The position numbers and the translations under genes are program-made. DNA of 64,000 bases from an uncultured SAR116 cluster alpha proteobacterium. GTDB taxonomy: Bacteria; Pseudomonadota; Alphaproteobacteria; Puniceispirillales; Marisalimonadaceae. Location: assembly GCA_902625215.1 (NCBI GenBank), contig CACOAO010000007.1, positions 1-64,000 of the forward strand. Reading direction: 5' to 3'. A model generated the notes under the pieces. That model was given only the letters and a program-made list of their open reading frames with translations. It ran no database searches and had not been told where the DNA came from. Of this stretch, positions 32,960-42,762 are shown one piece after another. The stretch's first letter is position 1. The number at the start of each line of letters is the position of its first letter.

Positions 32960-33669
32960 CTATTTATTTTTTTCCAAATACTGTTTTTTATTTGTTCTAT
33001 ACATTTCAAATGTAATGCATAATCATCCTGGTTAATTAAACTATTATTAATATATTTTACAGAGCTATTGTTATAATACTCATCTATGTCAAAAATATTA
33101 TTATCTTCAATATTATTACCTTTATTGACTGAAATCTCAAAGTTAAGTTTTGATTGTCTCCCTCCTATGAGTTCTAAGTAAACCTGTGATAAAAGTTTGG
33201 CGTCTTTTAGAGCACCGTGCATCTCTCTTCCTGATAAGTCAATATCATATTTTCTACATAAAGAGTCTAAGCTAACTGATTGACCTATAAACTTTTTTTT
33301 TGCAAGTAACATCGTGTCTATGACAGCATTCTGTTCTAATTTTTTCATATTACATCTCTCTAATTCGGCGTTTATGAAACCAATATCAAAAGACGCATTA
33401 TGAATTATAATTTTGCTATCTGATATATAATTTATAAATTCCTGAGCTATGTCAGAAAACTTAGGCTTATCGTTTAAAAACTCTCTACTTAAACCATGAA
33501 TTTCTTTAGCTCTAATGTCGGAATTTCTTTCAGGGTTTAAATAATAATGAAAATAATCTCCTGTTGGTAAATGATTTTCAAGTTCTATTATTCCGATCTC
33601 TACAAGCCTGTGACCATCTTCATAACTCAAACCAGTAGTCTCAGTGTCTAAAACTATTTCTCTAATCAT
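32956..33669 (-). CDS. dnaQ: DNA polymerase III subunit epsilon (proofreading exonuclease)
   Basis: DnaQ is the 3'-5' proofreading subunit of the replicative polymerase. The three exonuclease motifs are present: Exo I DTETTG at residues 8-13 (D8, E10), Exo II HNASFDIGF near residue 95, and Exo III HGALKDAKLL near residue 160. The ATG at 33669 is chosen because it yields the usual MIREIVLDTETTG opening; an ATG four codons upstream would lie deeper inside coaE. It overlaps coaE by 8 bp. The C terminus, which binds the alpha subunit, is diverged as in most DnaQ proteins. Confidence 0.95.
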   Translation of the reverse strand: MIREIVLDTETTGLSYEDGHRLVEIGIIELENHLPTGDYFHYYLNPERNSDIRAKEIHGLSREFLNDKPKFSDIAQEFINYISDSKIIIHNASFDIGFINAELERCNMKKLEQNAVIDTMLLAKKKFIGQSVSLDSLCRKYDIDLSGREMHGALKDAKLLSQVYLELIGGRQSKLNFEISVNKGNNIEDNNIFDIDEYYNNSSVKYINNSLINQDDYALHLKCIEQIKNSIWKKINS

Positions 33670-34273
33670 TTTTTTTCCCACATATTGCTATTTTAAACAA
33701 ATATTTCAGAATGACAAAGAAACTAAACACTCTTCCAAACGAGGTGCTAACAATCCATGGATGTTCTTTTTTTTTCTTTTTAAAATCCCATTGTGAATTG
33801 TTTATAAGATCAAATTTTGTCTCAGTCATATTTTCCCTGGATAAAACTCTTTTTTTTTGAATTCTCTTTGATGTATTAACTAAAAAAACATAATCACATA
33901 TTTTATCGGCCCCAGTTTCATACAACAATGGTACATCTAAGCCAACAATACTAAAATGCTTATGTTTTTTTAAGAAGAGATTCCTCTCTTTCTCAACAAT
34001 AGGGTGTATTATTTTTTCCAATTTGTTTTTGCTTTCGGTGTCGTTAAATATTATATCACTTAATGCTGTTTTATTTACAATTTTTTTGCTTTTTGAAATA
34101 TAAATTGTCTCAGGCCATGTTTTATAAATTTTGTCTATGACTTCATAATTCTTTTCCAAAATATTTTTTACTTTTTTGTCTGAGTCAAAAACAGGAATGT
34201 TCATAAATCTCAACATACAAGAAACTGTAGTTTTTCCCATCCCTATAGAGCCTGTAATTCCAATGATTATCAT
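33662..34273 (-). CDS. coaE: Dephospho-CoA kinase
   Basis: CoaE phosphorylates the 3'-hydroxyl of dephospho-CoA in the last step of coenzyme A synthesis. The P-loop GSIGMGKT is at residues 8-15, followed by the FDSDKKV substrate region and VGLDVPLLYETG near residue 108. The last 45 residues (after Q-W-D-F-K-K-K-K) are unusually hydrophobic and divergent, but the total length of 203 is normal, so I read it as intact. It is the gene directly left of the putative oriC; in Caulobacter-like genomes several genes lie between. Confidence 0.92.
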   Translation of the reverse strand: MIIIGITGSIGMGKTTVSCMLRFMNIPVFDSDKKVKNILEKNYEVIDKIYKTWPETIYISKSKKIVNKTALSDIIFNDTESKNKLEKIIHPIVEKERNLFLKKHKHFSIVGLDVPLLYETGADKICDYVFLVNTSKRIQKKRVLSRENMTETKFDLINNSQWDFKKKKKEHPWIVSTSFGRVFSFFVILKYLFKIAICGKKND

Positions 34274-34297
34274 AAATATTTTTTCTTGTTAGTAATA

Positions 34298-34306
34298 TGT
34301 TGATAA
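34298..34306 (-). promoter_or_regulatory. DnaA box-like site 1 in the oriC candidate
   Basis: The sequence TGTTGATAA differs from TGTGGATAA at one position. Confidence 0.5.
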
Positions 34307-34374
34307 AAGTTATTTTTCTATAATATATTCTTAATTAATTTTAAATGAAAATAGTTATACCGAATTTAAATACA

Positions 34375-34383
34375 TGTTGATAA
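34375..34383 (-). promoter_or_regulatory. DnaA box-like site 2 in the oriC candidate
   Basis: A second copy of TGTTGATAA, same orientation and same single mismatch as site 1, 77 bp further on. Confidence 0.5.
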
Positions 34384-34459
34384 TTCTTAATGATAAAATT
34401 ATAGTTTGTTAATAAGTCTTATTTATCTAATAAATTAACTATAAACTTTTTTAATAAGA

Positions 34460-34468
34460 TGTGGATAA
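34460..34468 (-). promoter_or_regulatory. Perfect DnaA box in the oriC candidate
   Basis: TGTGGATAA is an exact match (reverse complement TTATCCACA) to the bacterial DnaA box. By eye, only one other perfect copy occurs in the window, ahead of ccrM at 56718. Confidence 0.75.
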
Positions 34469-34484
34469 AATGTTCTTAATTGTA

Positions 34485-34493
34485 TTATTCACA
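34485..34493 (+). promoter_or_regulatory. DnaA box-like site 4 in the oriC candidate
   Basis: TTATTCACA fits the relaxed consensus TTATNCACA exactly and lies in opposite orientation to the three other sites, 16 bp from the perfect box. Confidence 0.55.
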
Positions 34494-34543
34494 GAATTAT
34501 AAACTACATCTACATCAAAATAATTTTATAAGGTATTATTTTT

Positions 34544-35575
34544 ATGAATAATAATTTAATAAATAAAGCTTTAAAAAGTAAAATAGCTAATGTTCCTATC
34601 TGGTTTCTAAGACAAGCTGGCAGACACATACCTGAATATTATAATATAAGAAGAAAAGAAAAAAATTTCATTGATTTTTGTTTGAATGAAGATCTTGTGA
34701 TCAAGTGTACAAAATTACCATTAAAATATTATGATCTTGATGCAGCTATTGTTTTTTCTGATATATTAATGATACCTTGGGCAATGAAAAGAAACGTTAA
34801 GTTTTGTAAAAATTATGGCCCGTCTTTAGATCCTATGATACCTGAAGAAACTAAAATATTACAAAATATATCTATAATAAACGAACTTACACCGCTTAAA
34901 AATTCGATTATGTGTCTGAGGAAAGAATTACCAAGCTCAATATGTTTAATAGGTTTTGCTGGTGCACCTTGGACATTAGCTTGTTATCTGATAGAAGGCA
35001 GGGGAAGTAAAGACTTTATAAATACTAGGAAAGCCCTTTGGAGTTCTCGTAAATGGTTCATGAAACTTATAGATACTTTAATAGTCTATATTTCTCAAAA
35101 GTTAGAAATGCAAGCTAATGCTGGTGCTAATGTATTAATGTTATTTGATACTTGGTCTCATATGATACCAAATAATTTCTTTAAAGACTGTGCAATAACA
35201 CCTGTTTCAAAAATAGTAAAAATTTTAAGATCTAAGAAAATTTATACCCCCATTATTGGATTGCCATTTAAAGCAGGCCCATCAATAATAGACTATTCAT
35301 ATGAAAGTTTAGTTGATTGTATTGCATTAGATTGGTCAATAGAATTAAAATGGGCAACAAAAAATATAAATAATGAAATAGCTATTCAAGGTAATCTTGA
35401 TCCTGCTTCATTAATTCCAAATGATAGTAATAATCTTGAAAAAAATGTTGTATCTATTTTGGATTCAATGAAAGAGAGAAAGTTTATCTTCAATGTAGGT
35501 CACGGTTTAACACCAGAATGTAAAATTGAAAATGTAAAAAAAGTTATAAATATTGTAAGAAATTATCAGCGATAG
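34544..35575 (+). CDS. hemE: Uroporphyrinogen decarboxylase
   Basis: HemE decarboxylates the four acetate side chains of uroporphyrinogen III to give coproporphyrinogen III in heme synthesis. The N-terminal signature appears as WFLRQAGRHIPEY (residues 21-33; the more usual form has Met and Tyr), with FSDILMIPWAM near 73, GFAGAPWTLACYLIEG near 135, LFDTWSHMI near 203 and FNVGHGLTPEC near the C terminus. Length 343 is normal. It is the first gene rightward of the putative origin, as in Caulobacter, and is followed by an unusually long 426-bp non-coding gap. Confidence 0.95.
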   Translation: MNNNLINKALKSKIANVPIWFLRQAGRHIPEYYNIRRKEKNFIDFCLNEDLVIKCTKLPLKYYDLDAAIVFSDILMIPWAMKRNVKFCKNYGPSLDPMIPEETKILQNISIINELTPLKNSIMCLRKELPSSICLIGFAGAPWTLACYLIEGRGSKDFINTRKALWSSRKWFMKLIDTLIVYISQKLEMQANAGANVLMLFDTWSHMIPNNFFKDCAITPVSKIVKILRSKKIYTPIIGLPFKAGPSIIDYSYESLVDCIALDWSIELKWATKNINNEIAIQGNLDPASLIPNDSNNLEKNVVSILDSMKERKFIFNVGHGLTPECKIENVKKVINIVRNYQR

Positions 35576-37267: not shown

Positions 37268-37283
37268 TGTTTCACGTGAAACA
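37268..37283. promoter_or_regulatory. parS site 1 (ParB-binding centromere)
   Basis: The 16-bp palindrome TGTTTCACGTGAAACA matches the bacterial parS consensus at all positions. It lies in the short rho-mnmE spacer, about 2.8 kb right of the putative origin. ParB nucleates here and spreads to organise the origin region for segregation by ParA. Confidence 0.93.
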
Positions 37284-40496: not shown

Positions 40497-41130
40497 AACT
40501 TACAATGGATTTTGTTCACAGATATTTGTTTCACGTGAAACATTTGAAAAATTATCTGTTTTTCATAACACTCTTCTTAAATGGCAAAATTCAATAAACC
40601 TTATAAGTAGAAGTACTATTAATAATATTTGGGAAAGACATATCTTAGATTCTGCACAATTATTTAAGTTTGTTAGAGATATAGATGGAAATATCTTAGA
40701 CTTTGGTTCTGGGGCAGGATTTCCAGGCTTAGTGTTAGCTATAATGGGTAAAAAGAATGTTCATCTAGTTGAATCAGATCATAAGAAATGCGTTTTTTTA
40801 AAAGAAATTTCTATGTTAACTGAAATAGATATAACTATACACAACTGTAGAATAGAAAATTTACGCTTTATAAATGTTGACTTAGTAACTTGCAGAGCAT
40901 TAGCACCGCTAAATAAATTAATACAGTATGTAGAAACATATATAAGAAAGTCATCAAAGCATAATCATCTCTTTCCTAAGTTGTTGTTTTTAAAAGGAAA
41001 ATCCTACAAAAGTGAGCTTTCACAATTAAATAAAAAAATACATTTTAAAGAATTTCCTTCTATAACAGACAAAGATAGTAAAATCTTATATGTTAATAAG
41101 TTGGATATGTTAAACGTTATAAATGAATAA
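40486..41130 (+). CDS. rsmG: 16S rRNA (guanine(527)-N7)-methyltransferase RsmG (GidB)
   Basis: RsmG methylates N7 of G527 in 16S rRNA. The Rossmann methyltransferase motif [15 protein letters not shown] is near residues 66-80, and the N-terminal [12 protein letters not shown] and E-R-H-I-L-D-S-A blocks are typical. The ATG at 40486 is preferred over a TTG two codons earlier. Length is 214. A perfect parS palindrome is embedded in codons 14-19 and is read as part of F-V-S-R-E-T, so the DNA has a double role. It overlaps parA by 8 bp. Confidence 0.96.
40527..40542. promoter_or_regulatory. parS site 2, inside rsmG
   Basis: A second exact TGTTTCACGTGAAACA, within the 5' coding part of rsmG and about 600 bp upstream of parA. 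Having two identical 16-mers 3.3 kb apart is far beyond chance and marks this region as the ParB loading zone. Confidence 0.93.
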
Positions 41131-41908
41131 TAAAACTACAAATATTATTGCTATAGCAAATCAAAAAGGAGGTGTGGGAAAAACCACTACTGTGATAAAC
41201 TTAGCAACAGCAATGGCAGCATGCGATAAAAAAACATTGATTGTCGATGCTGATCCACAGGGTAATGCAAGTACAGGTTTTGGTATAAAATATGATGAAA
41301 GAGATAAAGACTTATATTCTGTAATTTGTGGTAAAAATGATATAAATAGATCAATTAGAAATACTCTGATACCAAAGCTTAATATTATACCTACTTCACC
41401 AAATTTATCAGTTCTTGAGCAAGAATTAGTTGATGTAGACGATAGAGAATTTAAAATTCGAGACCTAATAGAAGATATTAACGATATATATGATTATATT
41501 TTTATTGATTGCCCGCCATCATTAGGATTAATTACATTAAACGCATTATGCGCAGCAAAATTCTTAATAGTGCCTTTGCAAACAGAGTTTTATGCTTTGG
41601 AAGGATTAACTCAACTCATGAAAACATTAGATTCTATAAAAAATAATTTTAATAATGAAATTAGGCTTCAAGGTATTCTTCTTACAATGTACGACAAAAG
41701 AAACAAAATATGTGAGATGGTATCAAACGACGTAAAAAATCACTTTGGTGATAAAGTTTTTAAAACGATAATTCCAAGAAATGTTAGAGTTTCCGAAGCA
41801 CCGAGTTATGGTCAACCAGTTTTAATGTATGATATTTCTTGCCCTGGATCACAAGCATACGCTTCATTAGCTGGCGAAATAATAAATCAAGAGAAAGATT
41901 TAAAATGA
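41123..41908 (+). CDS. parA: Chromosome partitioning ATPase ParA
   Basis: ParA is the Walker-type ATPase that moves ParB-bound origins. The deviant Walker A motif KGGVGKTT is at residues 15-22 with the signature Lys15, Walker A' is FIDCPPSLGLITLNA near residue 131, and VDADPQGNASTGFG lies near residue 43. Length 261 is right for chromosomal (Soj-type) ParA without an N-terminal HTH. It starts inside rsmG (8-bp overlap) and its stop overlaps the parB start (ATGA, 41905-41908). Confidence 0.97.
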   Translation: MNNKTTNIIAIANQKGGVGKTTTVINLATAMAACDKKTLIVDADPQGNASTGFGIKYDERDKDLYSVICGKNDINRSIRNTLIPKLNIIPTSPNLSVLEQELVDVDDREFKIRDLIEDINDIYDYIFIDCPPSLGLITLNALCAAKFLIVPLQTEFYALEGLTQLMKTLDSIKNNFNNEIRLQGILLTMYDKRNKICEMVSNDVKNHFGDKVFKTIIPRNVRVSEAPSYGQPVLMYDISCPGSQAYASLAGEIINQEKDLK

Positions 41909-42762
41909 AACAAAAGAAAAACAACAGAGCGATAGGCCTGGGTAGCGGACTTTCTAGTCTTTTAGGTGCTGAGGCAGAAAAAAAATCAGAAAATTTTAGA
42001 ATGGTTCCAATAGAATTTATTAAGCCTGGTCCCTGGCAACCAAGAAAAGACTTCGATAAAAAAGATTTGGAGGCTTTGTCAACTTCTATAAGCAGACAAG
42101 GAATAATTCAGCCAATAGTTTTAAAATCAAATAAAAATCAAAAAAATCAATATTTTATAATTGCTGGTGAAAGAAGATGGAGAGCTTGTCAATTAGCAAA
42201 AATACACGAGATACCAGCTTTTATAAGAGATGATATAAAAGATGATAGAGTTGCAGAATTGTCTTTAGTTGAAAACATACAACGATCTGAATTAAACCCC
42301 ATTGAAGAAGCAGAAGGTTATCACTCTTTAATTAACAAATACAATTATACACAAGAAGATATTTCAAAAGCTGTTGGAAAATCTCGTTCTTATATAGCTA
42401 ATATTATTAGATTATTATTACTATCAGATATGGCTAAAGAATTACTGTTAAAAAAGAAACTTAGTATTGGACAATTAAGACCGCTTATAGGTCACAAAGA
42501 TGCTGATCAATATCTACAAATAATTTTAAAAAATAAAATGAATTCTAGAGATATTGAAAAACTTATTAAAAAAGGAAATGTTAAGAAACACAAAATTAAA
42601 ACTAAAAGTGCAGATATTACTAACTTGGAAAAAGAATTATCAGATATAACAGGATTGAAAATTGATATTAATTTTGATAGTTCAAATCAAAAAGGTAATT
42701 TAAATATAAAATGTAAAAACTTGTCAGAATTTAATTATGTTATTGAAAAAATCAAGACTTAA
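41905..42762 (+). CDS. parB: Chromosome partitioning protein ParB
   Basis: ParB is the CTP-dependent clamp that loads at parS. It has an N-terminal GLGSGLSSLLG segment, the CTP-binding motif GERRWRA at residues 88-94, LVENIQRSELNPIEEAEGY, and the DNA-reading helix-turn-helix (T-Q-E-D-I-S-K-A-V-G-K-S-R-S-Y-I-A-N, about residues 143-160), plus a C-terminal dimer domain. The ATG at 41905 is chosen because it overlaps the parA stop and gives the expected N terminus; an upstream in-frame TTG lies within parA. Two parS sites are nearby. It overlaps convergent holA by 11 bp. Confidence 0.97.
   Translation: MKQKKNNRAIGLGSGLSSLLGAEAEKKSENFRMVPIEFIKPGPWQPRKDFDKKDLEALSTSISRQGIIQPIVLKSNKNQKNQYFIIAGERRWRACQLAKIHEIPAFIRDDIKDDRVAELSLVENIQRSELNPIEEAEGYHSLINKYNYTQEDISKAVGKSRSYIANIIRLLLLSDMAKELLLKKKLSIGQLRPLIGHKDADQYLQIILKNKMNSRDIEKLIKKGNVKKHKIKTKSADITNLEKELSDITGLKIDINFDSSNQKGNLNIKCKNLSEFNYVIEKIKT

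Follow-up and report, generated by a model that had tools for sequence, protein, structure and literature searches.

Is the spacer between the divergent coaE and hemE genes of an uncultured SAR116 cluster alphaproteobacterium the origin of chromosome replication and, if so, which part of it would be opened by DnaA? The sequence studied, referred to here as the window, covers bases 1-64000 of the 76.6-kb contig C7, from a genome of 2.0 Mb in 66 contigs with an estimated completeness of 88.84%. The spacer, at 34274-34543, is very likely the chromosomal origin, as predicted from its sequence and setting. An origin beside hemE is the expected one for the class of this bacterium, and in this respect it is an ordinary oriC; the part meriting experiment is a variant of the DnaA-trio array that lies next to one of its DnaA boxes.

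The spacer and its chromosomal setting

The initial annotation had described a divergent spacer of 270 bp, and this was borne out at 34274-34543 (15.6% G+C). It is flanked on the left by coaE (33662..34273, minus strand; PF01121, E 1.2e-33) and on the right by hemE (34544..35575, plus strand; PF01208, E 3.9e-85). Pfam matches supported the identification of CoaE, URO-D (HemE), a DnaQ-type exonuclease, SecB, Tim44, Smr, Rho, ParA and ParB in the window, with parA and parB located at 41123..42762 on the plus strand (AAA_31 and ParB_N/HTH_ParB). Three further ORFs, judged by eye from their translations, are presumably mnmE, mnmG and rsmG. As called mechanically, the minus-strand ORFs of coaE and of the dnaQ-like gene share 20 bp (33662-33681).

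Adjacency of coaE and hemE was found in 26 of 28 same-genus loci, the other two running off the contig edge, and the 26 spacers (own included) keep their place and a similar size, 259-289 bp. A HemE scan of the named genomes gave 24 loci, 20 of them in the SAR116 cluster, with an identity of 62-74% for 23 and 39% for Micavibrio. The hemE matches at G038:C15:12260-13234 and G044:C2:188803-189777, from two genomes of one genus, contain one in-frame TAA each.

The Caulobacter crescentus origin, Cori, was located experimentally beside hemE, and for Rickettsia, Wolbachia and others, origins flanked by hemE have been predicted (PMC1914354). As described in the portions of that paper used here, these origins share with the present spacer a position adjoining hemE, several DnaA boxes, an A+T content above that of the genome and a turn in GC skew. 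The spacer differs in having coaE on its other flank, not COG1806 (DUF299) or COG1253; COG1806 holds that place in Caulobacter and Rickettsia, and Wolbachia and its kin have a different gene there, so the flank is not a defining character (PMC1914354). Nor are CtrA sites of the form TTAA-N7-TTAA, which according to the same portions are usual at hemE-linked origins and missing in some. The window holds seven full sites of this kind and the interval 34274-34543 none, and Caulobacter-style CtrA control was rejected on this ground. An origin adjoining dnaA was likewise rejected, since dnaA lies approximately 63-126 kb from hemE in the 14 relatives with both genes on one contig; dnaA of the own genome sits on a different contig (C9).

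The only two perfect parS sites in the genome, both TGTTTCACGTGAAACA, were found at 37268..37283 and 40527..40542, 2.7 and 6.0 kb from the spacer; the next-best matches have two mismatches. Perfect parS sites were present in 22/22 relatives searched. The 18 same-genus genomes among them carry one or two each, always on the hemE contig except in G020, where one of the two is found on another contig. The arrangement is that of known ParABS segregation loci, with perfect 16-bp parS near parA-parB and the predicted origin, and shows no notable difference from them, the perfect sites here numbering only two.

A minimum of cumulative GC skew at the spacer had been named by the initial annotation as a check. 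With the own genome in 66 contigs, skew was read within the window, and relatives were sampled in stretches. Within the window, the sign of the running skew changes from minus to plus at 34-35 kb, with near-equal dips at approximately 52 and 62 kb. The same minus-to-plus change across the spacer was seen in all four longer same-genus contigs (stretches of about 20 kb: G011, -0.021/+0.089; G008, -0.034/+0.082; G022, -0.084/+0.028; G014, -0.098/+0.029), and single stretches went the opposite way at 1-20 kb in G008 (+0.095) and at 75-95 kb in G022 (-0.023). Four order relatives assembled in a single contig, each sampled in 20 stretches of 10 kb, gave a sign turn at hemE in G042 (-0.075/+0.084), G048 (-0.078/+0.043) and G043 (-0.083/+0.016, then +0.140); in G037, the turn came no more than about 70 kb away (-0.036/-0.012, then +0.049 some 70 kb further). 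The window and the relatives thus show a change of sign at hemE or close to it, but the interpolated cumulative skew of G011 (24 stretches) speaks against the spacer, with its minimum at 222 kb (-3069, versus -2534 at the spacer). Plain summing of the sampled stretches of G011 makes the spacer the lowest point (-2666 versus -2099). Its region 205-242 kb holds only two scattered TTATNCACA sites, as against three within 84 bp at the spacer beside hemE, the densest TTATNCACA group of that genome. GC skew in the genus tracks gene orientation. In G011:C1, a block of about 170 kb (approximately 222-390 kb) has a skew sign opposite to that of its neighbours, and at 333-353 kb the long frames are one-stranded; an inversion or rearrangement, an operon effect and an assembly fault are possible explanations of this block.

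The initial annotation had also pointed to a 76-bp block of 13% G+C. Such a block is present at 34384-34459 (13.2%) and is unremarkable by itself: 453 of the 76-bp windows in the window, amounting to 29 non-overlapping blocks, have a G+C content no higher than this. Because 29 non-overlapping blocks are equally AT-rich, AT-richness was dropped as evidence for an origin.

DnaA boxes and the period-3 array

The four DnaA boxes named by the initial annotation were found exactly where it had put them, at 34298, 34375, 34460 and 34485. It had overlooked a well-conserved box-like site at 34407, a weak one at 34287 and a period-3 array beside 34485. From left to right, the six sites are referred to as A to F, and the first five are read on the minus strand. 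Site A (TGTTAGTAA, 34287..34295) is weak and is within two mismatches of TGTGGATAA in 18/26 species. Sites B (34298..34306) and C (34375..34383) are both TTATCAACA, or TGTTGATAA on the plus strand, and are found with up to two mismatches in 20 and 19 of the 26 species, respectively. Site D (34407..34415) is TGTTAATAA here and TGTGAATAA or similar elsewhere, and all 26 species are within two mismatches of TGTGGATAA; the same conservation (26/26, up to two mismatches) applies to box E (34460..34468), a perfect TTATCCACA that reads TGTGGATAA on the plus strand. Box F (TTATTCACA, 34485..34493) is on the plus strand, faces the period-3 array and is the proposed loading box; it is within two mismatches of TTATCCACA in 24/26 species.

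Alignment of the 26 same-genus spacers placed boxes A-F in a fixed order with similar spacing, and little conservation is apparent in the sequence that separates them. Three of the spacers (L011, L023 and L026) had no box meeting the exact box patterns. In the same alignment, a short stretch immediately to the left of site C, at about 34362-34374 and leading into ACATG or ACATC, is conserved outside the DnaA boxes and is possibly a site for another factor.

Box motifs of this kind are frequent in the genome. TTATNCACA occurs 73 times (reversed control, 86) and TTATCAACA 75 times (reversed control, 46). Four of these 148 two-motif sites lie within 196 bp in the spacer, and the best 270-bp window elsewhere holds two; a denser cluster of the two motifs, which the initial annotation had proposed to look for, was not present in the own genome at its estimated completeness of 88.84%. 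When sites were placed at random on one 2.0-Mb line, a four-site cluster arose in 3 of 20,000 trials, a figure that is flattering because TTATCAACA was picked after the spacer had been inspected. For TTATNCACA alone, a chance pair within 25 bp appeared somewhere in 1,330 of 20,000 trials. What decides that the cluster is more than chance, as judged from the aligned sequences, is the conservation of the box array, which is independent evidence. A rival site pair at C17:1870/1889 was set aside as it falls within a 390-aa mechanical ORF. A further motif-site pair of the own genome is located at C11:48392/48528.

The array at 34504..34518 consists of CTACATCTACATCAA, which starts 10 bp after box F and has C at each third base, five times (34504-34516). 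On the plus strand it reads CTA CAT CTA CAT CAA, which is 3'-GAT GTA GAT GTA GTT-5' on the minus strand and resembles a series of DnaA-trios. The corresponding region of other same-genus species contains CTACTACTACTACTA, CAACAACAACAA, CATCATCATCATCAA and mixtures of these. In 23/26 species, the pattern (CWW)4 lies 10-14 bp beyond box F, whereas shuffled tails would give 0.01, the species being related and thus not independent trials. The absentees were L024, in which the array is present and box F is weak, L027, which has three repeats, and L028, which is weak. In the own genome, a box followed after 10-14 bp by (CWW)4 occurs once, in the spacer, and the reversed control of this pattern gave no match. 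With gaps of 0-19 bp allowed, the distance from box F to the array was 10-14 bp in all 26 spacers, with a mode of 13 bp (the value for L024 is spurious). From the array to the hemE ATG, the distance was 34-54 bp in 25 same-genus spacers, 59 bp in L028, which has no real array, and approximately 35-77 bp in 18 loci of the order, depending on the start codon.

Read 3' to 5' away from box F, the 103 triplets counted were GAT (36), GTT (36), GTA (28), GAA (2) and GCA (1); in L024 the script took another place, and the sole GCA comes from there. Repeats of GTA shifted by one base become TAG, with a middle A, as in L005. The all-GTT arrays (L018, L022 and L024) lack A in all three frames, and three consecutive GAT triplets occur within the same alignment region in 6/26 species. 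The AT-rich stretch beyond the array, 34519..34543 up to the hemE start, is proposed as a continuation of the unwinding region, and a TATA-rich stretch was recognised by eye at the corresponding place after the array in order relatives. On these sequence features, the period-3 array is the likely unwinding element.

Relation to the Bacillus DnaA-trios and reach of the pattern

In Bacillus subtilis, as set out in the passages of the literature drawn on here, the basal unwinding system (BUS) of oriC is composed of DnaA-boxes 6/7, a short spacer and DnaA-trios of sequence 3'-GAT-5', with a box-to-trio gap that peaks at 10-13 bp and has a mode of 13 (PMC6669920; PMC8287927; PMC10721633). The trios are read on the strand running 3' to 5' away from the box (PMC6669920). 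Asn187 of DnaA reads the middle A and Arg202 and Glu228 read the G, and trios with a middle T initiate more poorly in vivo (PMC10721633, in the passages used).

The coaE-hemE spacer resembles the BUS in having a box that faces the array, a gap of 10-14 bp, a trinucleotide period, the same strand, G as the first base and AT-rich DNA beyond. It differs in the middle base, which is A or T here and A in B. subtilis, and in the second box in the gap, which by eye was not recognised here. A DnaA box does lie within 16 bp of the array (box F, at 10 bp). At least three consecutive 3'-NAN-5' trios, the published search rule, are absent from the own spacer, so that by this rule its element is classed not as a BUS but as one that would function in a similar way. 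Eleven of the 26 same-genus spacers satisfy the rule, six of them with three GAT triplets and some only through other sequence near the box, and 15 fall outside it.

DnaA proteins from 30 of the 52 genomes with a DnaA match (the own genome, 28 same-genus genomes and one from the order) were aligned with B. subtilis DnaA (8btg). All 30 have Tyr at the position equivalent to Asn187, Lys at that of Arg202 and Glu at that of Glu228; Glu183 and Glu228 of B. subtilis are retained. DnaA from 30 genomes of the class has Tyr in 29 and Phe in one at the 187-equivalent, with Lys and Glu in 30/30. Within one SAR116 genus, the array varies between all-GAT and all-GTT, with residues 187, 202 and 228 unchanged in the species compared. 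Since the pocket residues are identical between GAT and GTT species, the pocket does not explain the trio letters of a species and only fits a relaxed middle position. We tentatively suggest, at a little below even chances, that the DnaA-trio code of Alphaproteobacteria differs from that of Bacillus: the G would be kept and the middle base would be A or T, the middle-base pocket having changed from Asn187 to Tyr, with Lys in place of Arg202 and Glu228 kept, so that one pocket would read both the all-GAT and the all-GTT arrays of the genus. Variation of the middle base is mildly surprising, as the textbook rule does not predict it. Among the titles and abstract openings of the literature surveyed, no mention of a T-middle trio in Alphaproteobacteria was found.

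The reach of the pattern was examined in the order and in the class. From the order, 18 of 20 spacers were used (L143 and L151 were left out as too short). Their best period-3 segment lies, by eye, mostly just before an AT-rich, TATA-like stretch, and the best period-3 C segment beats shuffles singly (p ≤0.05) in six of the 18 loci. The class loci were the best 30 of 204 genomes with hemE matches rather than a random draw, and the corresponding segment beats shuffles (p ≤0.05) in ten of them; in several others the best segment is away from the expected place, and L224 has by eye no such region. A strict pattern of box, gap (8-14 bp) and array was matched in 8/241 class genomes. Three of the eight matches are beside hemE (the own genome, G184 and G253). 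The match in G206 is on a contig other than that of hemE, G158, G201 and G247 have no hemE match among those listed, and for G257 the place is not listed. A strict class-wide rule of box, gap and array was rejected, as it matched these eight genomes only, with three known to be beside hemE. Given 8/241 genomes by the strict pattern and 10/30 and 6/18 loci by the loose one, the DNA evidence for extending the claim to the whole class is weak, and only the DnaA residues give it a firmer footing.

Competing readings and a proposed course of initiation

The spacer could instead be a shared regulatory region of coaE and hemE, in which the boxes are DnaA-responsive promoter sites, the array is an element of the hemE 5' leader such as an ACA-rich translation enhancer, and oriC lies elsewhere. 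The array would fall within the likely leader, its distance from the hemE ATG being 34-54 bp in 25 same-genus spacers, and promoter-like sites are present on both strands, although their number (16, versus 10.8 in shuffles, sd 4.1) is no clear excess. However, the gap between box F and the array (10-14 bp) varies less than the distance to the ATG (34-54 bp for the genus, about 35-77 bp for the order), a modest contrast, and parS and skew indicate the place of the spacer. We consider this reading very improbable. Slightly less credible still is an origin outside the spacer, in the neighbourhood of rho, mnmE, mnmG, rsmG and parAB, with the spacer acting as a DnaA titration or regulatory cluster. 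Both parS sites do lie rightward of the spacer, by 2.7 and 6.0 kb, and the skew resolves the origin more coarsely than a few kb, but neither the window nor the genome as assembled has a second two-motif cluster, and the box-plus-array pattern is unique to the spacer in that assembly.

A question of a different kind is whether the spacer is oriC and the array an unrelated conserved sequence and not a DnaA-trio equivalent, opening taking place in the AT-rich tract alone. This is unlikely, although it deserves far more weight than the two readings above. The 3'-NAN-5' rule does not describe the own spacer and applies to 11/26, partly through other sequence, and in B. subtilis middle-T trios initiate less well in vivo (PMC10721633, in the passages used). 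Against this, the position, strand, gap (mode 13 bp) and period of the array match those of the BUS trios, three GAT triplets occupy the same alignment region in 6/26 species, and the residue of DnaA that would read the middle base differs from that of B. subtilis in the aligned proteins. The identification of the spacer as oriC, made by the initial annotation, is well supported by the box cluster, the conserved array, the proximity of both perfect parS sites and, among relatives, the change of skew sign.

On the reading of the spacer as oriC with a trio-like array, DnaA would bind the minus-strand sites B, C, D and E together with the right-facing box F. A DnaA filament would then extend from box F onto the minus strand of the array at 34504-34518, and the duplex would open at the array and the AT-rich stretch up to hemE, the opened DNA allowing the helicase to load. 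ParB acting at the two nearby parS sites would help to separate the new origins.

The predicted origin provides a base-level map for a marine group with mostly uncultured records, and is useful for coverage-based estimates of growth rate from metagenomes. The 26 spacers also form a natural experiment, with one layout, varied trio letters and DnaA residues 187, 202 and 228 constant in the species compared, by which the reading of single-stranded origin DNA by DnaA becomes directly testable outside Bacillus.

The number of perfect parS sites was highest in G042, a single-contig order relative, which has 18, compared with one to four in the other 21 genomes searched. Eight of the 18 cluster within approximately 5 kb, at 3-8 kb from hemE; the remaining ten are scattered round the chromosome.
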